The notes below the pieces were generated by a model. It was given only the letters and a program-made list of their open reading frames with translations, did not search any database and was not told where the DNA came from. Of a stretch of DNA of 64,000 nt, positions 1,721-14,504 are shown in pieces. Positions within the stretch are counted from its first letter, which is position 1. Every line of letters begins with the position of its first letter. This stretch comes from Salinimicrobium sediminis (GTDB taxonomy: Bacteria > Bacteroidota > Bacteroidia > Flavobacteriales > Flavobacteriaceae). The DNA lies in assembly GCF_900215295.1 (NCBI RefSeq), contig NZ_OCMF01000001.1, positions 496,001-560,000 of the forward strand, in the 5' to 3' direction. Position numbers and translations under genes: made by a program.

Positions 1721-2896
1721 ATGAAGAAAATTTACCTCACCCCCTTATTGCACAAAGATGAGTGGCAAATTGCAATAAGATTCAGGTTTGACCAGGCGCT
1801 TAAAGATCTTATCACCTCCATAGAAGGCGTAAAATGGTCGGCCACTCATAATTGCTACATCACTACCTTGAACCGGGCCAATAAGCAGCTGCTCTATTCC
1901 AAAATTAGAGTTTCCGGCTTTTATATTGACTATACCGCATTGCAGCATTTTAGGCTGCCACAAGAACAGGAGGAAAAGCCTGGTGCCAGATTTAGTCGGG
2001 AGCAGAAGAAAATGCTACATGAATACGTCGCCTATTTACGTGGGCAGCGGCTTAGCGAGAGCAGCGTTCGCACCTACTACAATTTTATTCTGAAGTTGGT
2101 GGATTTCCTGGGAGACCGCAACGTAACCGATCTTAGCCACAGGGATCTTGAACTTTTCATTGAACAAAGGATTGCTGCGGAAAATTACGCTAGCACGCAC
2201 CGGCAGTGTATTAGTGCGATAAAACATTTCCTGGAGCTTTATGACTGCGGAAAAATAGATACAGCCGCAATCAAGCGTCCTAAAAAGAGCAGGTATTTGC
2301 CAACGGTACTTTCCAAGGAAGAAGTGATTTCATTACTGCGGGCTACCCGCAACCTGAAGCATCGGGCTATCCTGGCCATGATCTACTCGGGCGGTTTACG
2401 TGTTGGGGAACTCCTCGATTTAAAATTGCAGCATATTGACGTTTTGCGCAGGCAGATCATTATCAAAAATGCGAAGGGTCGCAAAGACCGGGCAGTAGTT
2501 TTGGCCGAAAGTATGCTACCCCTGCTTAAGAATTACCTTTCCACCTATAGCCCAAAAGTCTATTTCACCGAAGGCCAGGCCGGCGGATCTTATAGTGCAC
2601 AAAGTATAAGGGCTTTTTTACAAGACTCCTGCCGTCGTGCCGGAATAACGAAAAAAGTCACCCCGCACACCCTAAGGCATTCGTATGCCACGCACATGTT
2701 GGAAAACGGAATTGATTTACGGTACATCCAGGAACTGCTGGGGCATTCAAAACCGGAAACCACGATGATCTACACCCACGTTTCGCGCAAAGACATTTTA
2801 AAGATCGAGAGCCCACTTGACGTCACTGTGAAGGAAATGCTGAATTCTGATAAAAACAATGACAACCTGTTGTTATCCCGTCATTTTAAGGGATAA
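1721..2896 (+). CDS. Tyrosine recombinase heading the cassette array
   Basis: This 391-residue site-specific recombinase has the full catalytic set visible: R227 (GGLRVGEL), K252, H316 and R319 (HTLRHSYATHML), H342 (LLGHS) and nucleophile Y351 (TTMIYTHV). Residues 1-78 are an extra N-terminal region; about 92-175 is the SAM-like core-binding domain; about 192-365 is the catalytic domain. The C-terminal IESPLD resembles the end of integron integrases (VRSPLD). The roughly 35-residue insert that IntI enzymes carry between the catalytic K and H segments seems absent: a short STYSPKVYFTEG loop is there instead. The gene is on the same strand as the cassettes, and the first cassette begins 28 bp after its stop. 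It probably catalyses cassette capture or excision; that role is inferred from position and from the sites. Confidence 0.85.
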   Translation: MKKIYLTPLLHKDEWQIAIRFRFDQALKDLITSIEGVKWSATHNCYITTLNRANKQLLYSKIRVSGFYIDYTALQHFRLPQEQEEKPGARFSREQKKMLHEYVAYLRGQRLSESSVRTYYNFILKLVDFLGDRNVTDLSHRDLELFIEQRIAAENYASTHRQCISAIKHFLELYDCGKIDTAAIKRPKKSRYLPTVLSKEEVISLLRATRNLKHRAILAMIYSGGLRVGELLDLKLQHIDVLRRQIIIKNAKGRKDRAVVLAESMLPLLKNYLSTYSPKVYFTEGQAGGSYSAQSIRAFLQDSCRRAGITKKVTPHTLRHSYATHMLENGIDLRYIQELLGHSKPETTMIYTHVSRKDILKIESPLDVTVKEMLNSDKNNDNLLLSRHFKG

Positions 2897-2908
2897 TTAA
2901 CTATATTA

Positions 2909-2930
2909 GTTTTCATATAACGAGTTGCCA
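2909..2930 (+). other. attI-like junction between recombinase and first cassette
   Basis: The AT-rich sequence ending CATATAACGA|GTTGCCA joins the recombinase 3' end to the first cassette, whose boundary GTTGCCACC recurs at 3615. It occupies the place of an attI primary insertion site. No second copy exists to define its limits. Confidence 0.4.
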
Positions 2931-2954
2931 CCAATTTAAAGAACCTCCGATTCG

Positions 2955-3503
2955 ATGAATATTATTGAAGAATTATCTAAAAAATACAATGGAAACTATT
3001 CGGAGGAACAGCCAAAGAGTGTAAACAGCCCTATAGGAAAATACCTCTATCAGCCGAAAACGGGACTCATTGAATTTGACGGCTCAAAGATCGGAGTTAA
3101 TATTGACTCAGTTGGTGGTGCAATACCTGTAGCAGAACCTTTTCGGATCACACTTTACCTGGACAAAAATTATCTAACGGATCTGACAATCTTTCCTAAG
3201 AGTACATGGAATCGAATAACGGATCTGGTTTTCATCAAAAACAAAGAAAATCTACCTAAGCAGATAAGAAAACAATTCACGTTCGTTGGCGAAAGAAACT
3301 TGATAATGCAGCTCGGATCAAACGCTGAGTTTACAAATGGTTTGATGAATGAAAAAGTTTACATCAGAACGGACAGTAAAAAACCCACGCGGATTGTTCT
3401 AACTCCTGCACATGGTATTGAAGACATAGAACAATTTGAAAAATTTATATCACTTTTAAAGATCATTGAAAAGGCAATAAAAACTGGTGGCAACATCGGT
3501 TAA
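2955..3503 (+). CDS. Cassette 1: unknown 182-residue protein (copy 1)
   Basis: The product is soluble, with no signal peptide or membrane segment. It has a beta-rich middle (about residues 30-150) and a short C-terminal helix (about 155-175), and matches no family I recognise. ATG 2955 lies 31 bp after the cassette boundary. The last codons (GGNIG and stop) are read through the R'' and L'' arms of the attC-like site, so the recombination site sets the C-terminus. The gene is repeated without any difference at 3646-4194. Confidence 0.7.
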   Translation: MNIIEELSKKYNGNYSEEQPKSVNSPIGKYLYQPKTGLIEFDGSKIGVNIDSVGGAIPVAEPFRITLYLDKNYLTDLTIFPKSTWNRITDLVFIKNKENLPKQIRKQFTFVGERNLIMQLGSNAEFTNGLMNEKVYIRTDSKKPTRIVLTPAHGIEDIEQFEKFISLLKIIEKAIKTGGNIG

Positions 3504-3623
3504 CGAGCAAATAGCGGCAGACCGCTCAAAATGACATTTTTGACTACCTTTAAAAAGATAACTTAACCGACCAATAATCGTTTCCCAGGTCCGCTACTTG
3601 CGTTAACCGGGAACGTTGCCACC
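3486..3623. other. attC-like site A1
   Basis: Outer arms GGTGGCAAC (3486-3494) and GTTGCCACC (3615-3623) are exact inverse complements. Inner arms CGGTTAACG (3497-3505) and CGTTAACCG (3601-3609) are also exact. Further in, GCAAATAGCGG pairs imperfectly with CCGCTACTTGC. Total length is 138 bp, within the range of integron attC sites. The crossover-side core is GTTG. Confidence 0.75.
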
Positions 3624-3645
3624 AATTTAAAGAACCTCCGATTCG

Positions 3646-4194
3646 ATGAATATTATTGAAGAATTATCTAAAAAATACAATGGAAACTATTCGGAGGAAC
3701 AGCCAAAGAGTGTAAACAGCCCTATAGGAAAATACCTCTATCAGCCGAAAACGGGACTCATTGAATTTGACGGCTCAAAGATCGGAGTTAATATTGACTC
3801 AGTTGGTGGTGCAATACCTGTAGCAGAACCTTTTCGGATCACACTTTACCTGGACAAAAATTATCTAACGGATCTGACAATCTTTCCTAAGAGTACATGG
3901 AATCGAATAACGGATCTGGTTTTCATCAAAAACAAAGAAAATCTACCTAAGCAGATAAGAAAACAATTCACGTTCGTTGGCGAAAGAAACTTGATAATGC
4001 AGCTCGGATCAAACGCTGAGTTTACAAATGGTTTGATGAATGAAAAAGTTTACATCAGAACGGACAGTAAAAAACCCACGCGGATTGTTCTAACTCCTGC
4101 ACATGGTATTGAAGACATAGAACAATTTGAAAAATTTATATCACTTTTAAAGATCATTGAAAAGGCAATAAAAACTGGTGGCAACATCGGTTAA
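3646..4194 (+). CDS. Cassette 2: unknown 182-residue protein (copy 2)
   Basis: This is identical in DNA and protein to the gene at 2955-3503. The whole 691-bp unit 2924-3614, including its recombination site, is repeated as 3615-4305 with no difference that I could see by direct reading. The absence of any silent change implies a very recent duplication, a double insertion of the same circular cassette, or an assembly duplication. Its function is unknown, as for copy 1. Confidence 0.7.
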   Translation: MNIIEELSKKYNGNYSEEQPKSVNSPIGKYLYQPKTGLIEFDGSKIGVNIDSVGGAIPVAEPFRITLYLDKNYLTDLTIFPKSTWNRITDLVFIKNKENLPKQIRKQFTFVGERNLIMQLGSNAEFTNGLMNEKVYIRTDSKKPTRIVLTPAHGIEDIEQFEKFISLLKIIEKAIKTGGNIG

Positions 4195-4314
4195 CGAGCA
4201 AATAGCGGCAGACCGCTCAAAATGACATTTTTGACTACCTTTAAAAAGATAACTTAACCGACCAATAATCGTTTCCCAGGTCCGCTACTTGCGTTAACCG
4301 GGAACGTTGGCAAA
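4177..4314. other. attC-like site A2
   Basis: This has the same inner sequence as A1, but the downstream core is GTTGGCAAA from the next cassette instead of GTTGCCACC. The left arm GGTGGCAAC thus mismatches the right arm, as expected when the last bases of an attC site in an array belong to the following cassette. Confidence 0.75.
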
Positions 4315-4376
4315 CATGTGGCAAATCATTAGAGCTCACAGCGTTTTAGCCATTAAAAAGTGATTAAACGGACTCA

Positions 4377-4727
4377 ATGATTTTCTTTGAACATCTATTC
4401 ATTGTTATAGCTAAATTTTACATCAACACCTGGAGTAAATACAAAAATTGGTGGGTGAGTGTAAGATATGGTATTACTGTACTCGTGCTGTTAAATTTGC
4501 TATCTGTTCAGGCCATGATTGATAATCGGATGAATAAAATAACTTTTCTCTCCATTTTTGGGATTTGTTATTTAACTTCCTCCTTCATTTATCCCAAATT
4601 AAATGATAAGGACTTTGTTAAAAACTATAGCTTAAGTAAATCGTGGCGGACAGTTTCACTGATCTATATTTTTGGCTCAATAACAATCGGTATTCTGACT
4701 TTCTGGATTTTTATTGTGGGGATTTAA
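4377..4727 (+). CDS. Cassette 3: small membrane protein
   Basis: The 116-residue protein has about three hydrophobic segments (near residues 28-48, 53-72 and 88-115) joined by short charged loops, and ends in a membrane segment. No family was recognised. The gene sits 71 bp after the cassette boundary at 4306 and stops 9 bp before the R'' arm of its attC-like site. An integral inner-membrane location is inferred; the function is unknown. Confidence 0.6.
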   Translation: MIFFEHLFIVIAKFYINTWSKYKNWWVSVRYGITVLVLLNLLSVQAMIDNRMNKITFLSIFGICYLTSSFIYPKLNDKDFVKNYSLSKSWRTVSLIYIFGSITIGILTFWIFIVGI

Positions 4728-4735
4728 AATAACAC

Positions 4736-4871
4736 GTTTGCCAACACTGTATAAAAAAAATGCTCAAATCTGTCCCAATTCGAAAGTCCGTGCTCGCTTG
4801 CAACGCCTGATTGTCCTGCGGACAATCAAGCCATCGCCAGCTCGCACTATTTTTTATACGGGACGTTGTGC
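4736..4871. other. attC-like site B1
   Basis: R'' GTTTGCCAAC (4736-4745) is the exact inverse complement of the first ten bases of its own cassette (GTTGGCAAAC, 4306-4315). Inner arms TGTATAAAAAAAATGC and GCACTATTTTTTATAC pair. A central hairpin TGATTGTCC/GGACAATCA has a TGC loop. R' is GTTGTGC (4865-4871). This second site architecture (type B) differs from A1 and A2. Confidence 0.75.
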
Positions 4872-4885
4872 CAAATGTAAACTGA

Positions 4886-5362
4886 ATGAAGGCAACATTT
4901 AAAAACTTAGGAAAGCATCTTTTGTGGGGAATTTTAATAATCCTCGGCGGATTATTCCTTTATATGGTCGGAGCACAAATATTAGGTTATCTGCCATACT
5001 CTGACCGACCCGGACCCGGATGGTACAAAGGAGAAATCCTGGTGGATTGGGACGGATTAAAGTTCGTTTTAGATTTTATCCTGTTTTTAGGAATTTATAT
5101 CATCGGATCTCTGATTTTGGTTTACGGATTATTTCGGATTTTTCGCCTGTTCGGTTATAATAGAATAATTTACTCCATCCTTGGCGGACTGATTATCGGA
5201 TTCATATGTCTTTATTGGACTCTTGGGATTGGCTGGTACATTGCGATTGACGGTTCAACAGTAACTGCTGGAGGGATTCTTGGATTAATTTACGGAGCAA
5301 CAATTTTTCCGAAACTGCTTAGACCTAAAGAAGAACAAACACTTGGCACAACAAAGAACTGA
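4886..5362 (+). CDS. Cassette 4: membrane protein whose stop codon is made by an IS junction
   Basis: The 158-residue product has about four membrane segments (near 10-32, 55-80, 88-112 and 118-142). The family is not recognised. ATG 4886 lies 21 bp after the cassette start. The C-terminal LGTTKN is encoded by the R'' arm (TTGGCACAAC, 5343-5352). The stop TGA (5360-5362) is formed by TG of the target plus the first A of the IS110-family element. If the element is removed, the frame would continue for about 19 codons into the attC-like site before a TGA. The gene may therefore have been slightly shortened by the insertion. Confidence 0.6.
   Translation: MKATFKNLGKHLLWGILIILGGLFLYMVGAQILGYLPYSDRPGPGWYKGEILVDWDGLKFVLDFILFLGIYIIGSLILVYGLFRIFRLFGYNRIIYSILGGLIIGFICLYWTLGIGWYIAIDGSTVTAGGILGLIYGATIFPKLLRPKEEQTLGTTKN
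5343..5361. other. Left part of attC-like site B2, split by the IS
   Basis: R'' TTGGCACAAC (5343-5352) is the exact inverse complement of its own cassette start GTTGTGCCAA (4865-4874). The remainder of the site resumes at 6554 beyond the insertion. Joining 5361 to 6557 rebuilds AAAGAACTGTATAAAAAC, which matches the start of the other type B sites. Confidence 0.7.
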
Positions 5363-5379
5363 GTTAAAAAACAAGTCCT

Positions 5380-6345
5380 CTAAGCTAATTTCGAGACAAA
5401 ATTTTCCTGATAAGGCAAGCCTGATTTAGCGATAGCAAATGCCTGTTTCAATAGCTTGTTACATACAGCGATTAGAGCTAACTTTTTACTTTTCCCTTTT
5501 GCTACAATTCGTTCATAGATCTCCCTACAGGCTTTGTTATGTTTGCAAGCCGAAAAACTGCACATAAACAAAAGATTCCTGAGCTTTGCATTTCCCATTT
5601 TTGTTATCCGGCTACGGCCTCTCACACTGATGCCTGATTCTCGTAAGCTGGGCGTAATCCCGGTGTAGCTGCAAAGTTGTCTGGCGTTTTCAAAATTTGA
5701 AAATCCGTCGGTTAAGACAATCAACATAATGGCTGTTTTACTGCCCATTCCGGGAATGCTTTTGAGGAGGGTCAATTGTTTTTGTTGTTCTTCTTTGACG
5801 ATCTCCATCAGGCGGTCCTCCAGGATCTGGATTTCCTTCTGTACAGCTTTTAAGGAGCGGTTTAAAGAATGATATACTGCTTTAGAAGGTTTCCCCAGGG
5901 TTTTCTCTCCGTGCAGCTTATTCTTTAAGGCAGTGCTTTGTTTCAGGTAAATATCGATCAGGCGCATGAGCTGTAGACATTCCGCCTGGTTCTTATCCCT
6001 TGCAGTATATAGAGGAACTTCATTTATCGTAGCATATTCACAGATGGCTTTTGCATCAGATTTATCTGTTTTTATTCTGAAAAGTTTCATTTGGATAAAT
6101 CTTTTAACTGAAAATGGATTTACTACAGAGACCTTTACCCTTTGCTCATAAAGGAACTGAGCCAACCGGTAATGATAATATCCTGTAGCTTCCATTATAA
6201 CTAAAGCATCGGCAGGAAGAGCTTTTTGAAAGGTTTTAAATCCATTACCATCGTTCTTGAATTGAGAATGATTTCCTTCAGAGTCTACAACATCAAATAC
6301 ATTTTTACTGATGTCTACTCCATAAATTTGGCTACATTTATTCAT
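5380..6345 (-). CDS. IS110-family transposase (DEDD recombinase)
   Basis: The 321-residue protein has a RuvC-like DEDD N-terminal domain: D11 (YGVDISKN), E52 (MEATGYYHY), D94 and D97 (KTDKSDAKAI). The C-terminal IS116/IS110/IS902-type domain has the helix-hairpin segment IPGMGSKTA and the ESGISVRGRSRI region that holds the presumed serine nucleophile. ATG 6345 is preferred because the IS110 consensus begins near YGVDISK; an upstream GTG at 6369 would add eight residues. The gene appears intact. It would cut and paste the element through a circular intermediate. Confidence 0.9.
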   Translation of the reverse strand: MNKCSQIYGVDISKNVFDVVDSEGNHSQFKNDGNGFKTFQKALPADALVIMEATGYYHYRLAQFLYEQRVKVSVVNPFSVKRFIQMKLFRIKTDKSDAKAICEYATINEVPLYTARDKNQAECLQLMRLIDIYLKQSTALKNKLHGEKTLGKPSKAVYHSLNRSLKAVQKEIQILEDRLMEIVKEEQQKQLTLLKSIPGMGSKTAIMLIVLTDGFSNFENARQLCSYTGITPSLRESGISVRGRSRITKMGNAKLRNLLFMCSFSACKHNKACREIYERIVAKGKSKKLALIAVCNKLLKQAFAIAKSGLPYQENFVSKLA

Positions 6346-6369
6346 AGATAATTGATTACGAAAGGACAC

Positions 6370-6553
6370 CTACTTTGCTTTCAACAACTTAAAATCGAGA
6401 TCAAAGTCTCACAGAACTGAACGAAATTGAAGTAGAAAAGAGAGGGGATTTTCAATGTTGACGGAATCTCAAGGTTCCCACATATAACATAACCTTACTC
6501 CTCTCTTTTGTTCTTTCTGGTTAGTGAGTAAAAGTTAGAAAATCAAACTTAAG
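6370..6553 (-). ncRNA. Candidate bridge-RNA region of the IS110 element
   Basis: This is the non-coding region between the element end and the transposase start. AAAAGAGAGGGG (6436-6447) pairs with CTCCTCTCTTTT (6498-6509) with one wobble. Nested inside, AAGGTT (6471-6476) pairs with AACCTT (6491-6496), giving a stem with internal loops. IS110-group elements are known to encode a structured guide RNA here. Assignment is by position and foldability only. Confidence 0.4.
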
Positions 6554-6674
6554 CTGTATAAAAACAATGCTAAAACCTGTCTCAAATCGAAAGTCCCTGC
6601 TCGTTTACAACGCCTGATTGTCCTGCGGACAATCAAGCTCGCCAGCTCGCACTGTTTTATATAGGACGTTGGAA
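6554..6674. other. Right part of attC-like site B2
   Basis: The segment from CTGTATAAAAACAATGC through the central hairpin TGATTGTCC/GGACAATCA and CTCGCACTGTTTTATATAG to R' GTTGGAA (6668-6674) parallels site B1 closely. It is separated from its R'' arm by the IS. Confidence 0.7.
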
Positions 6675-6700
6675 GCAATTTGCATATTTAAAACCGTTAA

Positions 6701-7366
6701 ATGAAAGAATCAATCTTACTAACCTGCGCTTTAATATTTTTTAGTATCAAACCTAGTAGTGCTCAAAAGTATATACCTGCCGATCTAATTCCCAAAGGAT
6801 ATGTATTATTTGAGGAATATAGTGGAGACCTAAATAATGATGACAGAAAGGATTATGTACTAATAATTAAAAATACAAAGGAAGAGAAGATAGTTAAAAA
6901 CAGATTTGGAGATGTAATTGATCGTAATAGAAGAGGAGTTATCATAATTCTCACCAAAGACAATGAATACGAAAAAGTAGTTGAAAATAAAGATTGCTTC
7001 TCATCAGAAAATGAAGATGGCGGAGTTTATATGCCGCCAGAATTATGGATTAATATTGAGGACAATAAGCTGAAAATTCATTACGGTCACGGCAGATATG
7101 GTTATTGGGAATATATCTTTAAAAACCTGGATTCTGAATTTAAACTAATTGGGTATGAATCAAGTGAAAGTAACGGACCAAAAGTGCTTTATCAAACTAA
7201 AATAGACTTCTTAAAAAAAGAAAAAACATTATCCGAAAACACAACTAAAGATCCTGCGGTTGAAGAAGAAATCTTTGAAGTAATCTCTTACGATATAAAA
7301 ATAGATGATTTATTAAGATTAACTGAAATTGAAAATTTTGAAGATCTCGATATGACAAAATATTAG
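6701..7366 (+). CDS. Cassette 5: secreted protein of unknown function
   Basis: The 221-residue product has a cleavable signal peptide (about residues 1-21, ending SSAQ). It is followed by a DLNNDDRKDYVLII segment of the kind found in FG-GAP/VCBS-type calcium-loop repeats, then acidic, mixed sequence. It probably works in the periplasm or is exported. No named family was recognised. ATG 6701 lies 33 bp from the cassette boundary. Directly after the stop is GTTGGCAAAC (7367-7376), the same ten bases that start cassette 3, and the R'' that follows does not match this cassette's own start. The unit may thus be a fusion of two cassettes. Confidence 0.6.
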   Translation: MKESILLTCALIFFSIKPSSAQKYIPADLIPKGYVLFEEYSGDLNNDDRKDYVLIIKNTKEEKIVKNRFGDVIDRNRRGVIIILTKDNEYEKVVENKDCFSSENEDGGVYMPPELWINIEDNKLKIHYGHGRYGYWEYIFKNLDSEFKLIGYESSESNGPKVLYQTKIDFLKKEKTLSENTTKDPAVEEEIFEVISYDIKIDDLLRLTEIENFEDLDMTKY

Positions 7367-7376
7367 GTTGGCAAAC

Positions 7377-7510
7377 AGACAACATCGGTTTAACGGGCAA
7401 ATATGGGGAAACCCTTCTAAAATACCATTTTTGACTACTTATAAATAGATAATTTATCCGACAAATTGAGTTTCCAGGTCCGCCACTTGCGTTAACCGGG
7501 ACCATTGCCA
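7377..7510. other. attC-like site A3
   Basis: AGACAAC (7377-7383) is followed by ATCGGTTTAACG, and CGTTAACCGGGACC precedes ATTGCCA (7504-7510). The middle shares ATTTTTGACTAC, GATAA and CCAGGTCCGC with A1 and A2, so it is a diverged type A site. The core begins ATTG instead of GTTG. Confidence 0.65.
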
Positions 7511-7540
7511 GTAATTTGACCAAACCCTGGAAATAACAAA

Positions 7541-7600
7541 ATGGACATAAAAAAATTAGTAGAAGTTGAAAAAGCGGCCTCTTTATTTTACAGAATGTAA
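7541..7600 (+). pseudogene. Short reading-frame remnant upstream of the RibD-like gene
   Basis: A frame of 19 codons starts MDIKKLVEVEKAAS and ends at TAA 7598-7600. It sits in the 144-bp leader of cassette 6. It may be the start of a decayed gene or chance; no homology can be claimed. Confidence 0.2.
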
Positions 7601-7647
7601 TGGTTGTCTAAAATTAATTTTGACAAAACATTAAAAATTTAAAACAG

Positions 7648-8181
7648 ATGCGAAAATTATCACTTTTCATTGCCACAAGTTTAGACGGCTACATTGCAAA
7701 ACCTAATGACGACTTGAGTTTCTTAAAACTCGTAGAAAAAGAAGGTGAAGATTATGGTTATAACGAATTTACAGATACAATTGACACTTTGATTATTGGT
7801 AGAAGAACTTATGATTATGTGCTTAAGGAAATTGGCTCATCATTTTACGACAATGGCCAAAGAGACGTATATGTGATAACAAGAAGCCCAAGACCAAGTG
7901 TTGGTAGAACGACTTTTTACACAGGTAATTTAATCGATTTGGTAGAGCAACTCAAATCAGAAAACGGGAAAAACATCTATTGTGATGGTGGTGCAGAAGT
8001 AATTAATGAACTATTAAAAAATGACTTAATTGATGAATTTATTATTTCCGTGGTTCCTGTTTTGTTGGGGAATGGTACAAGATTATTTAAAGACGGACGA
8101 CCTGAACAAATACTTGAATTGGTAAAAGCAAAAACATTTGAAACAGGCTTGACGCAACTCCACTACAAACGGAAAAATTAA
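7648..8181 (+). CDS. Cassette 6: RibD C-terminal/dihydrofolate-reductase-like protein
   Basis: The 177-residue cytoplasmic protein belongs to the YwjB/YyaP-type branch of the DHFR-like fold. It has FIATSLDGYIA at residues 7-17, IIGRRTYDYV in the middle and CDGGAEVINELLK near 113-125, followed by LIDEFIISVVPVLLGNGTRLF, all hallmarks of the RibD_C family. These proteins bind NADPH-like cofactors; the substrate is usually unknown. Similar genes often travel in mobile cassettes. Its attC-like site starts 7 bp after the stop. Confidence 0.85.
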   Translation: MRKLSLFIATSLDGYIAKPNDDLSFLKLVEKEGEDYGYNEFTDTIDTLIIGRRTYDYVLKEIGSSFYDNGQRDVYVITRSPRPSVGRTTFYTGNLIDLVEQLKSENGKNIYCDGGAEVINELLKNDLIDEFIISVVPVLLGNGTRLFKDGRPEQILELVKAKTFETGLTQLHYKRKN

Positions 8182-8187
8182 AAAACG

Positions 8188-8354
8188 AACCGCCAACTAT
8201 GTATAAGCGTAATGCGGGTGAAAGATCCCGATAGGCATCGGGACCGTGCTTGCTTGCTCAGGGGATTGTCCTTTCCCCTCCGCTGAACCTACAGGTAACG
8301 CGACCAACAATCAAGCTCTCCAGCTCGCACTGTTTTTTTACGTGAATGTTGTAC
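8188..8354. other. attC-like site B3 with enlarged hairpin
   Basis: R'' AACCGCCAAC (8188-8197) is followed by TATGTATAAGCGTAATGC, and R' is GTTGTAC (8348-8354). It keeps the type B ends and CAGCTCGCACTGTTTTTTTACG. The central ATTGTCC...CAATCA hairpin is replaced by a longer version starting TTGTCCTTTCCCCTCCGCT. A second hairpin GATCCCGAT/ATCGGGACC lies at about 8225-8250. The cassette's own start matches R'' at 6 of 9 positions. Confidence 0.6.
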
Positions 8355-8361
8355 CCTTTTA

Positions 8362-8862
8362 ATGAAAACAAAAACTAAACTTACAACCATGAAAAAAGTG
8401 TTATTACTAATTGCCGCAACTCTCATCACCGCTTGCTCTACCGAAAAGGATGAGAAAATTTGTTGTACAATTATAGACACAGAAGTTTCTATAAAATATG
8501 TAAATGAAGATGGGCAAAATCTTTTTGAAATTGAAGATGGCTTAACCGCAGACGAAATTACCATCTATCATAAAATAAATGATGAGTGGATAGAATACTA
8601 TAAGGGAAATCTGGACCATCCGAAAGGTATTTTTGTCGTAGAAAGAGAAGAAGGAAGTTTTTTAAAAATATTCCCAAGTTCTACCATTGTTGAAGACACC
8701 TATTCAGAGACAAAAATAGAATTTTCTGAATCTGATTCTGATGTTTTGAGAACGGAAATCGAGAAGAAGAATTCCAATGAAATAGTAACAAAAGTGTGGT
8801 ACAATGATGAATTGAAATGGGAAAGAAATCAGTCCGAGAGAATGTTTGAAATATTAAAATAA
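8362..8862 (+). CDS. Cassette 7: lipoprotein of unknown function
   Basis: This lipoprotein has a type II signal sequence (MKKVLLLIAATLITAC, lipobox LITAC). The first ATG, at 8362, is 14 bp after the cassette core and gives 166 residues. The ATG at 8389 gives a more typical signal peptide, and either start may be used. The mature part is acidic and rich in E, D and K, with beta-type alternation and no recognised domain. Envelope localisation is inferred. Confidence 0.6.
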   Translation: MKTKTKLTTMKKVLLLIAATLITACSTEKDEKICCTIIDTEVSIKYVNEDGQNLFEIEDGLTADEITIYHKINDEWIEYYKGNLDHPKGIFVVEREEGSFLKIFPSSTIVEDTYSETKIEFSESDSDVLRTEIEKKNSNEIVTKVWYNDELKWERNQSERMFEILK

Positions 8863-8865
8863 AAC

Positions 8866-9028
8866 GGTTTGCAACATTTTATAAAAACAATGCTGAAATC
8901 TATTTCTAATCCAAAGTCTCTGCGTACTTGCTGCGTCTGATTGTCCTTTCCCCTCCGCTAAAGCTACGGCGAACACGACGGACAAGCACGATAGACAGCT
9001 CTCACTGTTCCTATACGAGACATTGTGT
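8866..9028. other. attC-like site B4 with enlarged hairpin
   Basis: R'' GGTTTGCAAC (8866-8875) is followed by ATTTTATAAAAACAATGC, and R' is ATTGTGT (9022-9028). It shares with B3 the central insertion beginning TTGTCCTTTCCCCTCCGCT, then diverges. CTCTCACTGTTCCTATACGAGAC closes the site. Confidence 0.6.
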
Positions 9029-9064
9029 TCAACCAACAGGAACGTCATTGCATAATGTACTTTA

Positions 9065-9898
9065 ATGGAAATAAAAATAATAGATACTGATAAAGGACAG
9101 GTTGAATACTCAATTGTCGGAAAAGAAAAACCTGTTTTATTTCTGCATGGAGGACATTCCAATTGCAAAGAGACTCTATTTCATAAAGGATTTGACACAA
9201 ATAAATTTCAGCTTATAACACCTTCCCGTCCTGGATATGGAAAAACTCCCCTCGACGATAAATTTACTCCAGGAAAGACAGCCGATTTGTTAATCGCATT
9301 ATTGGACTATTTGAAAATTGATAAAGTAGTATTATATGGAATATCCGCCGGTGGATTGACCTCCATTGAATTGGCTTCTCGATACCCGGAAAGAGTTGAT
9401 AAATTAATTTTAGCTTCAGCTGTATCAAAAAAATGGTTAGATGAAAATGGACAGGTTTATAAAACAGCAAAGAAACTATTTAATCCAAAAACGGAAAAAA
9501 TCATATGGGGCATGACAAGGATATTTTCGAGAATATTTCCCAAAATGATTGCAAATAATTTTCACCCGCAGTTTTCAAAAAATAAACTTCAGAAATTAGA
9601 TAAGGGGGATGTGAATGAGTTATTAGCGACCTTAAGGCACTATAATTCAAAAACCGGTTTTATAATTGACATAGAACACAATATTGAAAGGGAAATCATT
9701 TCGAATATTCAATGTCCCACTTTAATAATACACAGTAGGAATGACAATAGTGCTTCATTTGAACATGCCGAACATGCTAACAAAATGATAAACAATTCCA
9801 AACTTATTGGATTAGATAATGAGTGGGGGCATTTATTTTGGATTGGAAAAGACTCTAATGAAACGATAAAAAAGATAATAGAATTTATAGAGCATTAA
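9065..9898 (+). CDS. Cassette 8: alpha/beta hydrolase
   Basis: This 277-residue cytoplasmic serine hydrolase shows the fold's landmarks: oxyanion loop FLHGGHS (H28-G29), SRPGYGKT at about 54-61, nucleophile elbow GISAGG with S94, a candidate acid in HSRNDNSASF near 223-232 and the catalytic histidine in EWGHLFW near 255. There is no signal peptide. The substrate is unknown; esterase or haloperoxidase-like enzymes share this layout. The next cassette holds a fragment of another hydrolase. Confidence 0.8.
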   Translation: MEIKIIDTDKGQVEYSIVGKEKPVLFLHGGHSNCKETLFHKGFDTNKFQLITPSRPGYGKTPLDDKFTPGKTADLLIALLDYLKIDKVVLYGISAGGLTSIELASRYPERVDKLILASAVSKKWLDENGQVYKTAKKLFNPKTEKIIWGMTRIFSRIFPKMIANNFHPQFSKNKLQKLDKGDVNELLATLRHYNSKTGFIIDIEHNIEREIISNIQCPTLIIHSRNDNSASFEHAEHANKMINNSKLIGLDNEWGHLFWIGKDSNETIKKIIEFIEH

Positions 9899-9904
9899 TG
9901 CCGG

Positions 9905-10031
9905 CACATAACACGTGGTATAATCAAAGGGTTTCAGTGCTATGCGAAGGATTGTAGTTTGATTTAATGTCTCGTGTACCTTGAAGTGATTCACCCGCAC
10001 TCCCTTAACGGCCATATCACCCACGTTGAGC
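9905..10031. other. Diverged attC-like site C
   Basis: The arms are CACATAACACGTGG (9905-9918) and CCACGTTGAGC (10021-10031). The outer ends pair imperfectly and the interior is unlike types A and B. The start of cassette 8 matches the R'' complement at about 6 of 9 positions. This is the weakest site of the array and marks its decaying end. Confidence 0.45.
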
Positions 10032-10095
10032 TTAATACTGGCAAAAACCCGGTTAATACCGAAAAAGATGAGATATTGAGGAAAAAGTTTCAAGT

Positions 10096-10356
10096 ATGTT
10101 ACAAGCAAATCTAAACAACTACAAATTCAATTATGTTGAGAATGGAAATGGAGACAGACTTGTATTTGTTCACGGTTCTGCAAGCGATTACCGAACCTGG
10201 AACAACCAATTGGAATACTTTTCCAAATATTATCACACTATAGTATATAGCAGACGATATCATTGGCCAAATGAACGAATACCAGACGAAGAGGATTATT
10301 CTATGGCAAAACACGTCGAAGATTTAGAAGAATTAGAAAAGTGCAGGCGCAATTAA
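10096..10356 (+). pseudogene. Cassette 9: truncated alpha/beta hydrolase
   Basis: The 86-residue frame begins like an alpha/beta hydrolase. It has the oxyanion loop FVHGSASDYRTW and a strand followed by YSRRYHWPNE and MAKHVEDLEEL, then stops at about one third of the usual length, before any nucleophile elbow. No continuation is visible in other frames downstream, where only about 60 bp separate it from the next gene. A remnant left by deletion in the last cassette is the simplest reading. Confidence 0.65.
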
Positions 10357-10419
10357 AAAATTTATAAGGCCGGGTGTAACATTTTGAATAACGGCAGGTC
10401 TTTTTTGGAAACGAACCCA

Positions 10420-11913
10420 ATGAAAGAAATCTTCGCAATCTTATTAACCGGTTTACTTTTTTTATCCTGTAAAGAAGCTCAAAACGAAGAAGCTGTTATC
10501 TATACAGTTGCATTTGATAAGGACAATTTAAAAAGTGCTGAGGTAAAGGTTGAACTTAACCTTAGAGACAGCATTCTGTTCATGGATCCTGGTGCCAACG
10601 ATCTGGAAAGAGGTTGGGCGACCTTCATCCATGACTTGAAGGCTGTAAACTTAAAAGGGGAACCGGTCACATTGGAAGAACTCCCCGGTGCCAAATGGAA
10701 GATCCACTCCCCCCTTGACGGAAAGATTGTATTGACCTATGATGTGCACTTGGACCATGAAGACTTCGAGTGGGACGGGGGTATAGACGGGGTGGCCTAT
10801 CACACCGACAGGGGCATATTTTTTACGGGAAGAACCCTGTTCATCATGAATGGAGAAAAACGAAAAAATATCAAGGTTGATTTTCAGCTGCCTGAAAACT
10901 GGAAAGTTACCACTCCCTGGGCCGATAACCGGGATATTGTTCCTTCCTATCTTGTAATGAATAACACCGAACTGGCCAACGCAATGGTCTTTGCCGGAAC
11001 ACATAAGGAACTTACTCTCAAAAGGGAGGATTTTGAGTTTGTCTTTGCGCTTGGCAGTAACGAAATCATTGCTGATGAAGCCATTTTTAAAGATCTCGCG
11101 GAAGGGGTTTTGGATTATTATATTGAACTTATGGGAGGCATCCCGAGGCCTTCACCCGATGATCCTTTCAAAAAAATGGTAGTGGTTATTAGTTCACATC
11201 CATCGGTTACAGATGGAGAAGTTATAGGAAATAACATTAGTATCCTGATTCAAATAGGTGCTGATCAATTTTCAAAAACGATTTCAAGGTTCATTTTCGC
11301 TCATGAATTCTTCCACCTCTGGAACGGTAAATCTTTTAGCCCAAATAGTGAAAACGCGGAGTGGTTCAAGGAAGGCCTGACCAACTATTACACCTTGAAA
11401 GCCTTGCACCACGTCAATTTTTTGACAGACGAATCTTATTTGGATTTCCTGAGCAACTTTTTTTACAAACGCTACCGGGAAGATGAAGGTCTCGGGGAAA
11501 TAGCCATGGCAAATGGTGAAGAGAAGCACGATCACTGGGGTTTGATATACGGAGGCGGTATGCTTGCGGGTATCGCGCAGGATTTGATCATTCGTGATGC
11601 CACTAACAATGCAAAATCCATGGATGATTTGATGCGCGGTTTATGGGTTAAATATGGAAATACCAATGATCATTATAGCCTTGAAGAACTTCAAAAGCTT
11701 ATGTCCCAACTCAGCGGAAAGGATCAAACTAAGTTCTTTGATTCCTATGTTCTGGGCACCGAAAGCATCCCTATTGAAGCCTATTTAAAATTGTCCGGAC
11801 TGGACGCGAATACTGAAAATGGAAATTTGATCTTATCAAAAAAAGAACAACAAACTCAGATGCAAAGGGCTATTATGAAGGGAATGTTTGGCCAATTAGA
11901 AGATGAAAGATAA
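10420..11913 (+). CDS. M61/M1-like metallopeptidase lipoprotein
   Basis: The 497-residue lipoprotein (signal MKEIFAILLTGLLFLSC, lipobox LFLSC) carries a zinc protease signature: HEFFH at residues 295-299 and E318 in WFKEGLTNYY, an HExxH-x18-E spacing typical of gluzincins. The region before it (about 40-220) is beta-rich, as in M61 glycyl-aminopeptidase-type proteins. ATG 10420 is chosen for the signal peptide; an upstream in-frame TTG at 10384 adds twelve unlikely residues. It begins about 64 bp after the broken hydrolase and looks like resident chromosome. Confidence 0.75.
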   Translation: MKEIFAILLTGLLFLSCKEAQNEEAVIYTVAFDKDNLKSAEVKVELNLRDSILFMDPGANDLERGWATFIHDLKAVNLKGEPVTLEELPGAKWKIHSPLDGKIVLTYDVHLDHEDFEWDGGIDGVAYHTDRGIFFTGRTLFIMNGEKRKNIKVDFQLPENWKVTTPWADNRDIVPSYLVMNNTELANAMVFAGTHKELTLKREDFEFVFALGSNEIIADEAIFKDLAEGVLDYYIELMGGIPRPSPDDPFKKMVVVISSHPSVTDGEVIGNNISILIQIGADQFSKTISRFIFAHEFFHLWNGKSFSPNSENAEWFKEGLTNYYTLKALHHVNFLTDESYLDFLSNFFYKRYREDEGLGEIAMANGEEKHDHWGLIYGGGMLAGIAQDLIIRDATNNAKSMDDLMRGLWVKYGNTNDHYSLEELQKLMSQLSGKDQTKFFDSYVLGTESIPIEAYLKLSGLDANTENGNLILSKKEQQTQMQRAIMKGMFGQLEDER

Positions 11914-12050
11914 AGGGTATCTGCACCTGATGTTTAACGCAGGGTTCCAAAGTGAAGCCCGGTTCCATTTCTAAAGATCTGTTTTTCCAAGCAGGAGGAA
12001 TCTCCCAATTCCCTTATATTAGTTGAGCTAAAGTAAAAGTATAAGTTTCA

Positions 12051-12332
12051 ATGAAACCGCTTCTCCTCTTTTTTCTAATGGCCACTACAAGCCTTAGCTG
12101 TCAAACCCCGGTTACGGAAGTCATTTTCCACCCCCATGAAGATACTGTTGTTTATCAACAGGAACCGAACCCGTTAAGGCGGGTATTAAAACAAAGTGTG
12201 GTTTTCCAAGGCTTGCTACTTAACAGGCAACTCCCGCTTTGGAAAACTTGTAGTTTCCACTGCAATATTGAATTCCCGGTAAAGTTCCAGCAGGTTCATG
12301 GTGGAGGTTACAAGATCACGGGTTTCCAGTAG
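12051..12332 (+). CDS. Possible small lipoprotein, doubtful gene
   Basis: A 93-codon frame starts with a convincing lipoprotein signal (MKPLLLFFLMATTSLSC). Its last 39 codons run antisense through the 3' end of the phosphate transporter gene and have no natural character. The first 50 or so residues may be the remains of a gene cut off when the convergent region was rearranged. No family was recognised. Confidence 0.35.
   Translation: MKPLLLFFLMATTSLSCQTPVTEVIFHPHEDTVVYQQEPNPLRRVLKQSVVFQGLLLNRQLPLWKTCSFHCNIEFPVKFQQVHGGGYKITGFQ
12201..12247. other. Inverted repeat at the 3' end of the phosphate transporter gene
   Basis: GTTTTCCAAGGC (12201-12212) and GCTTTGGAAAAC (12236-12247) pair at 11 of 12 positions around the transporter stop codon. 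There is no long T-run, so it may act as a weak terminator or mRNA end stabiliser. Confidence 0.4.
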
Positions 12333-14504
12333 AAGTCCGAAATAAAGTTCAGAGTTCTTGGGACTGCTTTCTGTTGTTCGAATGCGTTTGATCTGCTTCT
12401 CAATGAGCTGCGATACCTCGTTAAAAAGTTCCTGTTTTCCGGCCAATACATTTTCAATACGTGAAAATTGCTGTTGCTCAAAGATATCTTCTATTTCATC
12501 AAAGAGTTTCTTAATCTTTTCATCCACCCGTTTAAGGTCCTTGATCTGGTTGAACTTTAAATTCTTATGGTTATTGTTCACATGGTTGTAGCTGTTCCTG
12601 GTGATATAACCAATAGACTGTACCATGTCCTGCAGATAGTCCAGAATAAGTATGTAAAAACGGTTGGAATCGAGAGAATTTTCTTCAATGGTCTTAATAA
12701 AATAGAAGACATTCCGTTTAAGCTCATCGATTTCAGACTCCAGTTTTTTAATAGCCTTTTTGTTCTTTTTAAGCTTTGATTTATCGTAATAACCAAGGTT
12801 TTCTACTGTTTTTGAATACATCTTGTTAACTCCTCCAATGATGCTGGAAATGTTCTTGGAACTTTCTACAACAATATCATTGATGGTACTAAGCTCTTTT
12901 CTTCGGAAAGGTTTATTTAAGGCTTCCTCTTTTTCTTTGCGGGTGTGGATCACAAAACTACGGGCTATACTAAAGATGGCCAGACCAAGTAAAATGGTTA
13001 TAGCGATGATGCCTCCAAAATAGATAATAGAAGCAAATAGGGCTGCTGCCGAAAAAGCAACCAGAGCAGTAATAAACCAACCTCCTACAACATTGACTAC
13101 GCCGGCCACCCTGTAAACCGCACTTTCTCTATCCCAGGCCCTGTCGGCCAGAGAAGTACCCATGGCAACCATAAAGGTCACATAGGTGGTAGATAGCGGA
13201 AGCTTTAAACTGGTACCAATAGAGATCAGTATTCCCGCCACTACCAGGTTTACAGACGCCCTTACCAGGTCAAATGCAGGAGTATCCTCATCATCTTTGG
13301 TAAAGGATTTTTGGTTCTGAAATTTTTCATCAATTTTTTTACTTACTACTGCCGGGGTGATCGCTTCCAGGACATTCCCCATGTAAACGGAATACCTTAC
13401 GATCCCACGGGAAATAAAATTAGGATCAAATCTTTCTGAAACCTCTCCCTGTCTTGAGAGATTCACTCCGGTTTTGACCACGTTACGGGCCTTTCGGGAA
13501 AACCAAAGCGTGATCACCATCACCGCCCCTGCCCCCAATAACAGGAATGGCGGAGTAGAAACTTCTCCCTGCAGGCCACTCATTAAAAATTCCGATGGCA
13601 ATGCACCCGAGGTGAGGTAAGCATCCTGCCATAAAACAAATGATTGCCAGGCTGCAATGGGAACACCTATAAAGTTCACCAGGTCATTCCCCGCAAAGGC
13701 CAGGGCCAGGGAAAACGTACCTATCAGGATAATGACCTTTAAAATATTCATTTTTAAAAGGCTCATTAGCAGTTGTGAAACAATAGTAAAGAGAATTAAA
13801 CCTGCACCAATAATGATAAAAGTATTTTCTTCAATGTATTCGAGAAAACTTTCCGGAATAAAGGTCACAGATTTTAATCCCTTCAGTAGGATAAAATAGA
13901 GAATAGCGGTTAGAGACACTCCTCCAAAAACAGCACCGGCATATCTGATCTTTTGTTCATACTGAAAGGAGAAAATAAGGCGTGAGAAATACTGCACCAC
14001 CGCTCCAATAATAAATGCAATGACCACGGCCATTAAGATCCCAATAATTATTTCGGTGGCTTTGGAGGTGTTGATATAATTCAGGATCTCCCCATAATCT
14101 CCCGAATCCTTATAGATCTTTATGGCTGCCATACTTACGGCTGCACCAAGTAATTCAAACACAATGGACACTGTGGTAGAGGTAGGAAGGCCAAGGGAAT
14201 TGAAGAAATCCAGGAGCAGCACATCGGTGATCATCACTGCCATAAAGATGATCATGATCTCCTCGAAATAGAACTGCCCCGGGAGAAAGATACCTTTTCG
14301 GGCCACTTCCATAATGCCACTGGAAAATATTGCTCCCACTGCTACTCCAATACTGGCCACGATGAGGATCTTTCGCATTGAAAAAGCCCTGGAACCAATT
14401 GCCGAACTTAAAAAATTGATAGCATCGTTACTTACACCCACTACAAGATCTGTAATGGCAAGTGCAAACAATGCAACCAGCATTAAAATATAAATATCTT
14501 CCAT
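12216..14504 (-). CDS. PiT-family inorganic phosphate transporter with C-terminal cytoplasmic domain
   Basis: This 762-residue cation-coupled phosphate permease has two inverted PHO4 repeats. The first has GVSNDAINFL at 23-32 and LGLPTSTTVSIVFELLGAA near 105-123. The second has AFAGNDLVNFIGVPIAAW near 270 and LKLPLSTTYVTFMVAMGTSLADRAW cut across residues about 428-452. About twelve membrane segments are present. After about residue 530 comes a roughly 230-residue hydrophilic helical tail resembling PhoU/DUF47 regulators, which are separate proteins in many bacteria. Divergent from the PepSY-like gene. Confidence 0.88.
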   Translation of the reverse strand: MEDIYILMLVALFALAITDLVVGVSNDAINFLSSAIGSRAFSMRKILIVASIGVAVGAIFSSGIMEVARKGIFLPGQFYFEEIMIIFMAVMITDVLLLDFFNSLGLPTSTTVSIVFELLGAAVSMAAIKIYKDSGDYGEILNYINTSKATEIIIGILMAVVIAFIIGAVVQYFSRLIFSFQYEQKIRYAGAVFGGVSLTAILYFILLKGLKSVTFIPESFLEYIEENTFIIIGAGLILFTIVSQLLMSLLKMNILKVIILIGTFSLALAFAGNDLVNFIGVPIAAWQSFVLWQDAYLTSGALPSEFLMSGLQGEVSTPPFLLLGAGAVMVITLWFSRKARNVVKTGVNLSRQGEVSERFDPNFISRGIVRYSVYMGNVLEAITPAVVSKKIDEKFQNQKSFTKDDEDTPAFDLVRASVNLVVAGILISIGTSLKLPLSTTYVTFMVAMGTSLADRAWDRESAVYRVAGVVNVVGGWFITALVAFSAAALFASIIYFGGIIAITILLGLAIFSIARSFVIHTRKEKEEALNKPFRRKELSTINDIVVESSKNISSIIGGVNKMYSKTVENLGYYDKSKLKKNKKAIKKLESEIDELKRNVFYFIKTIEENSLDSNRFYILILDYLQDMVQSIGYITRNSYNHVNNNHKNLKFNQIKDLKRVDEKIKKLFDEIEDIFEQQQFSRIENVLAGKQELFNEVSQLIEKQIKRIRTTESSPKNSELYFGLLLETRDLVTSTMNLLELYREFNIAVETTSFPKRELPVK

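Follow-up and report, generated by a model that had tools for sequence, protein, structure and literature searches.

Organization of the locus

The window analysed here is a 64 000-nucleotide stretch of a Salinimicrobium sediminis contig. Near its start, a gene for a tyrosine recombinase is followed on the same strand by an array of about eight cassettes that reaches ∼9.9 kb, with sites that by eye fall into two types, A and B. The first cassette boundary (the G of GTT) is at 2924, 27 nt past the stop codon, which ends at 2896, in agreement with an earlier sequence-only reading that had the gene co-oriented with the cassettes and a boundary soon 3′ of its stop. The features, with the evidence for each in parentheses where available, are as follows.

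1721–2896, + strand: array-heading tyrosine recombinase, 391 residues, without the IntI insert (ORF translation, curated models, alignment)
1721–1969, + strand: N-terminal domain (about residues 1–83), best fold matches the UvsW/XPB N-terminal domains (moderate, Z 6.8–7.8), then eIF1-like folds (models, fold searches)
2873–2880, + strand: conserved attI-flank element TTATCCCG, overlapping the gene end (attI alignment, −51 to −44)
2902–2909, + strand: conserved TATATTAG, candidate cassette promoter (attI alignment, −22 to −15)
2916–2926, + strand: attI-like site TATAACGAGTT with crossover TATAACGA|GTT, the G of GTT being 2924 (motif; duplicated-cassette junction)
2924–3614, + strand: cassette 1, ORF 2955–3503 without assigned function (ORF list, junction comparison)
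3485–3624, + strand: attC-like site A1, R'' TGGTGGCAAC ... R' GTTGCCACCA (sequence, folding)
3615–4305, + strand: cassette 2, exact copy of cassette 1, ORF 3646–4194 (sequence comparison)
4176–4315, + strand: attC-like site A2 (sequence, site anatomy)
4306–4864, + strand: cassette 3, ORF 4377–4727 (sequence, site anatomy)
4736–4874, + strand: attC-like site B1, R'' GTTTGCCAAC; L'/R' TTTTATACGGGACGTTGTGCC (sequence, folding)
4865–6667, + strand: cassette 4, ORF 4886–5362; an IS110 element splits its site between R'' (5343–5352) and L'' (6554)
6668–7503, + strand: cassette 5, ORF 6701–7366; 3′ site ending ATTG, not GTTG
7504–8347, + strand: cassette 6, ORF 7648–8181, RibD_C domain
8348–9021, + strand: cassette 7, ORF 8362–8862
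9022–9900, + strand: cassette 8, ORF 9065–9898, alpha/beta hydrolase; boundary ATTG; 3′ end decayed or unclear

Cassettes 1 and 2 are an exact 691-bp tandem duplication (2924–3614 = 3615–4305), and the left junctions of the duplicated cassette (AACGA|GTTGCC and GGAAC|GTTGCC) place the crossover at the G of GTT. By eye, the late boundaries at 7504 and 9022 read ATTG rather than GTTG. Neither the recombinase nor any of eight window ORFs had a match in a defence-family search.

The IS110-family (RNA-guided) transposase ORF (5380–6369, − strand) is located inside an attC-like site (5343–6554), between R'' and L''. A second IS110 is annotated downstream of a homologue on a Chryseobacterium plasmid (L106, 13272–14273), and IS110 elements may have a preference for attC-like sites. 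The same genome contains a second small cassette cluster, which is CALIN-like (L104, ∼8474–12570; G000:C6, ∼404.7–408.8 kb), with two cassettes showing six-base own-end matches and two B-type sites; no match to a tyrosine recombinase was found within ∼50 kb of this cluster on its contig.

The recombinase and its missing insert

For comparison, 59 homologue loci were fetched with their flanks and oriented by the recombinase gene, having been picked among the matches listed, chiefly for long contigs. These consist of 40 F1 loci, with proteins 43–68% identical to the window protein, and 19 F2 loci (33–43%); counts over 41 F1 include the window locus, as does the F1 array test described below.

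The full catalytic set read from the sequence alone (R227, K252, H316, R319, H342 and Y351) is present, and all six residues are invariant in a 49-row alignment of the family. The segment between the K patch and the HxxR box is 59–60 residues long in 41 of 41 F1 and 19 of 19 F2 proteins, compared with 101–102 residues in 32 of 32 IntI proteins (IntI1, V. cholerae IntIA and 30 from the phylum) and 61–67 residues in three Xer references and the genome's own L001 and L003. The sequence-only reading was thus right about the absence of the IntI-specific segment and too low on its size, which is ∼42 residues rather than ∼35. It had also proposed a structure prediction for this region; the AlphaFold model of the recombinase (mean pLDDT 88, pTM 0.63) has no helix at residues 276–293. 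None of the 60 family proteins contains the additional domain, with its I2 helix, by which IntI-defined integrons are recognized.

The top curated models are the XerA-type NF040815 (215.9 bits, cut-off 220) and the IntI model TIGR02249 (186.3 bits, cut-off 265); neither cut-off is passed, and that of NF040815 is exceeded by some other members of the family. The closest solved structures are also XerA-type (4a8e, Z 21.7).

The N-terminal region, read from the sequence as ∼78 extra residues, is modelled confidently as a domain: residues 1–80 have block pLDDT values of 89–97 and 86–95 in two models, and residues 1–86 modelled alone have a pLDDT of 90. The best fold matches are UvsW (Z 7.8) and archaeal XPB N-terminal domains (Z 6.8–7.4), with lesser matches to eIF1-like proteins (up to Z 6.2) and the HARP domain of SMARCAL1 (Z 4.0). 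Foldseek returned nothing below E 0.001 for this domain (best row the eIF1-like YciH, E 0.078), and its two Pfam matches are sub-threshold, neither of them credible. At Z values below 8 the match may reflect a common arrangement only. XPB and HARP domains are readers of damaged or branched DNA, and we treat an XPB/HARP-like reading of the modelled domain as a lead only.

Phylogenetic position

A 57-row tree of the shared core separates F1 (support 100/99) and IntI (100/100, on a long stem) into distinct clades and places F1, F2, the `short' relatives and IntI together against Xer with support of 100/99, XerA being represented by two rows only. A first tree also recovered F1 (97/99) and IntI (100/99), with an unresolved backbone. 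F2 is not one clade, and some of its rows group with F1 (95/86). AU tests did not reject a grouping of IntI with F1 (p 0.469) or with F2 (p 0.543). Judging from these trees, the recombinase family is near kin of IntI and not an unrelated recruit. The phylogeny with IntI and Xer called for in the sequence-only reading therefore puts the protein outside the IntI clade and apart from Xer, which favours the distinct lineage proposed there, one that took up or independently handles attC-like sites, since F1 and IntI each have a clade of their own. An IntI with a displaced insert was also considered; the separate F1 and IntI clades together with the 59–60-residue stretch rule it out.

Site anatomy

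Each cassette starts with GTTN7 and ends with N7AAC, and the two N7 stretches are complementary; these arms differ between cassettes, yet match between a cassette's own two ends. Downstream of the gene, own-end matches favour the cassette order, with 227 GTT-first against 94 AAC-first in 432 kb at F1 loci, 177 against 53 in 252 kb at F2 loci and 124 against 57 in a second set made up of the best 80 of 567 loci. The corresponding upstream counts are 15 against 15 (F1, 161 kb), 8 against 6 (F2, 76 kb) and 57 against 79 (80-locus set). Four other core triplets used in place of GTT/AAC gave no comparable own-end excess. Among 944 matches of at least six bases past GTT, 416 are six bases long and 489 are seven, with only 39 extending beyond that, which defines the arm as ten bases. 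The 80-locus set overlaps the 59 homologue loci, so that the two sets are not independent. L158 is the same as L078 in sequence and was omitted from the site-anatomy and array counts, but is counted in the own-end and attI-motif totals; other overlapping pairs (e.g. L139/G261 and L141/G047) were kept, and only identical site sequences were merged, in the site-anatomy count. Own-end matching replaced a first, structure-only site finder that was moderately specific (0.106 per kb upstream, 0.322 per kb downstream).

Since own-end matching selects sites by their arms, the measures of the interior alone are independent of the selection. These were taken from 197 distinct sites at 58 loci, with both flanking cassettes confirmed. 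The interior is ∼119 nt long (quartiles 117–120 nt, range 39–193 nt); in 154 of 197 sites it contains an inner helix of 6 bp or more (6 of 197 when shuffled), and the commonest unpaired spacers are 3/6 (84 sites) and 3/5 (45 sites). In 173 of 196 family sites, the bottom strand folds more stably than the top. Among three window sites that were folded, B1 clearly beats its shuffles on the bottom strand only (z −3.0, versus −1.2 for the top strand), and the stretch 7384–7514, folded as given without its left arm, shows no gain over shuffles. Bulge counts in the folded sites were too scattered for use.

A control was run with nearly the same settings on 20 true IntI loci from other lineages of the phylum Bacteroidota. 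Reading away from intI, the 5′ side there has 82 own-end matches against 19, and the 3′ side has 25 against 8. The 42 confirmed sites, from 13 loci, have a median interior of 110 nt and loops that are mostly 2/6 (21 sites) or 3/6 (seven sites). The method thus recognizes integrons, and the family sites have an IntI-like geometry. Three differences stand out. Firstly, IntI arrays are found mainly 5′ of the gene and those of the family 3′ of it. Secondly, family own-end matches end at ten bases, whereas those of IntI are often longer (41 stop at N7 and 66 do not). Thirdly, an extra base on the L'' side, which we take to be the place of the IntI extrahelical base, was scored at least once at 10 of 12 IntI loci versus 3 of 57 family loci; by site, the counts are 27 of 41 for IntI versus 7 of 189 for the family (10 of 41 and 20 of 189 when shuffled). 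The per-locus majority is L'' at six IntI loci and none at six, compared with none at 44, L' at 12 and L'' at one of the family loci; where an extra base is scored in the family, it is more often on L' than on L'' in both F1 (21 versus 4) and F2 (33 versus 3). The bottom-strand preference is weak in the control (24 bottom and 17 top of 42), and bottom-strand stability is for this reason not decisive.

Arrays on the 3′ side of the gene

In the window's taxonomic family, 191 of 299 genomes contain relatives of the gene at E ≤ 1e-40, and the best 80 of 567 loci include named matches in Bizionia, Mesonia and Xanthomarina. In the class, a family profile matches at E ≤ 1e-70 in 171 of 345 sampled genomes; it gives a single match in the window's genome, indicating that the genome's Xer genes are not counted.

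Loci with at least 8 kb downstream were scored as having array evidence if the 3′ side of the gene carried three or more repeat segments or five or more own-end matches. Such evidence is present at 26 of 30 F1 loci (window included) and 16 of 18 F2 loci, while the identical test on the 4 kb upstream is positive at 2 of 30 and 0 of 18; as the downstream flanks extend up to 14 kb, per-kb counts are the fairer comparison. The loci without array evidence are L045 (same genus), L054, L058, L076, L087 and L088. The sequence-only reading had held that the same gene in genomes with no cassettes nearby would count against it; this situation occurs at only those four of 30 F1 and two of 18 F2 loci, and also at eight of nine flank sets from relatives of 274–306 residues with at least 8 kb downstream, the ninth (L288) having an array. 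Two (L280 and L281) of five longer relatives from outside the window's family, fetched alongside, have arrays, so that heading an array is not universal in the wider clade. The array signal is likewise weaker outside the window's family (51 versus 28 own-end matches at 20 loci): the recombinase family mostly heads arrays in the window's own family and less clearly beyond it.

The relatives of 274–306 residues at L277–L279 and L283–L287 are too short for the N-terminal domain and have no arrays by this definition; several of their genomes also carry a true IntI. The draft contigs of L017, L019, L060, L068, L084 and L090 stop less than 200 bp past the aligned end of the recombinase gene; such contig ends are expected if repeated sites break assemblies, and would make integrons look recombinase-only.

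The attI-like site

An attI-like TATAACNA|GTT follows the gene at 35 of 41 F1 loci. As the pattern TATAA(C/T)NNGTT within 300 bp past the aligned gene end, it is found at 35 of 41 F1 loci, 26 of 80 loci in the 80-locus set and 0 of 19 F2 loci, with four matches in the 161 kb upstream of F1 genes. The aligned F1-type loci have two further elements in common: positions −51 to −44 read TTATCC-G, and positions −22 to −15 read TATATTTG. The latter resembles what we take to be the Bacteroidetes −7 promoter box, which makes it a candidate cassette promoter. By eye, the junction of many F2 loci is preceded by a palindrome, and the F2 attI differs from the F1 motif. An attI-like site adjoins the integrase gene at the point where the first cassette joins.

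Cassette content and mobility

The longest ORF of 204 distinct cassettes is co-oriented in 190, opposite in five and shorter than 60 residues or absent in nine; it starts a median of 26 nt past GTT and stops a median of 12 nt before AAC. The arrays consist of tandem cassettes, each with a single ORF and an imperfect-palindrome site, in one direction. Six cassette proteins chosen among 20 listed include a GNAT acetyltransferase, SUKH, AbiH-type and HTH proteins, and two have no match. The AbiH (abortive infection) match is at L069 (∼4484–5677, − strand), where it is possible anti-phage cargo.

Identical cassettes occur in different positions. A 760-bp cassette is present at five places in L079, including at attI, and a 777-bp cassette of L201 occupies the first position and one inside the array; in each case the copies are 100% identical. 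L063 (F1-headed, G101) and L183 of Winogradskyella ursingii share a 916-bp cassette at 99.9% identity; the enzyme of L183 is 37% identical to the window recombinase, and since G101 has its F1 gene as the sole match, the two loci probably belong to different species. Other pairs of an attI-proximal and an internal cassette are found in L069/L070 (92.5%) and L162/L166 (88.0%). The ends of the mobile cassettes are at GTT or a few bases off, and long repeats resembling IS copies (e.g. in L092) were excluded. These comparisons argue for cassette mobility bounded at GTT.

Proposed mechanism and alternatives

The array, the attI-like site, the site anatomy, the exact boundaries, the cassette mobility and the absence of I2, all of them features read from sequence, very probably reflect an integron-type cassette platform operating in the absence of an I2-bearing IntI. 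The window recombinase would do the cutting. A conserved double-stranded attI, 27 bp past the stop codon, would be recombined with sites on circular single-gene cassettes, with cleavage at GTT and stacking of the cassettes downstream in the gene's own direction. The substrate would be the folded bottom strand: the right arm varies from cassette to cassette while a cassette's own two ends pair perfectly, which suggests that the sites are probably recognized as folded single strands, as own-end pairing is useful only if the ends meet in the hairpin of a closed circle. The polarity that I2 gives to IntI might come from the N-terminal domain, the asymmetric spacer or both. We more tentatively consider it possible that folded-site cassette capture needs no I2 at all, that IntI and the present family descend from one cassette-handling ancestor, that I2, with its docked extrahelical base, arose later in IntI, and that polarity in the Bacteroidota is set by the asymmetric spacer and/or an XPB/HARP-like N-terminal domain reading branched DNA.

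The same platform could instead run a classical double-strand reaction, with a Xer-type enzyme acting on duplex simple sites through two strand exchanges and the hairpins as by-products. The XerA-type character of the closest structures and the best model (4a8e, Z 21.7; NF040815, 215.9 bits), the absence of I2 and an attI core like an ordinary duplex core site would all fit. We nevertheless consider this unlikely, since duplex sequence recognition is hard to see with a right-arm 7-mer that varies per cassette, and the sites conserve own-end pairing and the inner stem as well as the length of the interior and the asymmetry of the spacer.

A genuine IntI, located elsewhere or now lost, might have built the arrays, with the co-oriented recombinase as an incidental neighbour. 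Elsewhere in the phylum IntI does occur frequently, with 105 of 395 sampled genomes above the cut-off, and IntI sites are similar in geometry. This explanation is nonetheless very improbable: there is no IntI match at E ≤ 1e-30 in the window's genome (five of ten candidates scored), where L001 and L003–L007 have 56–71 residues in place of the 101–102 of IntI, L008 being unaligned; only G333 is over the cut-off among the rows listed from the window's own class; recombinase and attI occur together in dozens of genomes; and the family sites mostly lack the L''-side extra base (3 of 57 versus 10 of 12 loci). A reading of the repeats as palindromes related to transposons or IS elements (IS110-type or MITE-like) that gather near the gene is scarcely credible, despite the IS110 in one window site and the IS-like character of some long array repeats (L092), given the one-sided placement, the single-ORF units and the own-end matching, and identical GTT-bounded cassettes at attI and inside arrays rule it out.

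Relation to known systems

The platform shares with IntI/attI/attC integrons, both mobile and sedentary chromosomal, its general layout, an attI beside the gene, AAC...GTT cores, own-end pairing of the arms, an asymmetric spacer, a single co-oriented ORF per cassette and mobility bounded at GTT. It differs in that the recombinase lacks the IntI insert, has an extra N-terminal domain and is co-oriented with its array, in that the arrays are on the 3′ side of the gene whereas those of IntI are mainly on the 5′ side, and in the sites, which mostly lack the L''-side extra base and have own-end matches that end at 10 bp where those of IntI are often longer. XerA, XerC and XerD have the catalytic core, the fold and the lack of an insert in common with it; in contrast to them, the window family is a separate clade, heads cassette arrays and has an N-terminal domain, and the Xer-type genes of the genome (L001 and L003) are separate from it. 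The system may accordingly be described, from its sequences, as an I2-less, co-oriented Bacteroidota integron, integron-like in its presumed working and kin to IntI.

In the excerpted text of PMC8138268, the insert is incompletely conserved in an `integron-like' subgroup of tyrosine recombinases, and that part of the description does not include the arrays, the sites or a Bacteroidota platform. Co-orientation is not unique to the present family, as typical IntIs of Spirochaetota are generally reverse-oriented (PMC9668308, excerpt). According to the excerpts of two further papers, the I2 helix is needed for cassette capture and is present in no other protein (PMC7790495), and the extra domain distinguishes IntI from other integrases (IntegronFinder 2.0; PMC9024848). 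In searches of open-access papers, judged from titles and the opening lines of abstracts, no report of the system was listed, and a prior description is possible. A search for the extra domain of IntI would miss the family, which is present in about half of the genomes sampled from the class (171 of 345). Related enzymes that either have or lack I2, acting on sites that either have or lack the extra base, offer a natural test of the role of I2.

Both F1- and F2-headed loci are present in one genome in the pairs L057/L098 (G100), L074/L092 (G168) and L064/L088 (G220). The first two pairs each contain segments that are common to both loci and more than 99% identical, possibly owing to exchange between F1 and F2 platforms, although some of these segments may be IS copies.
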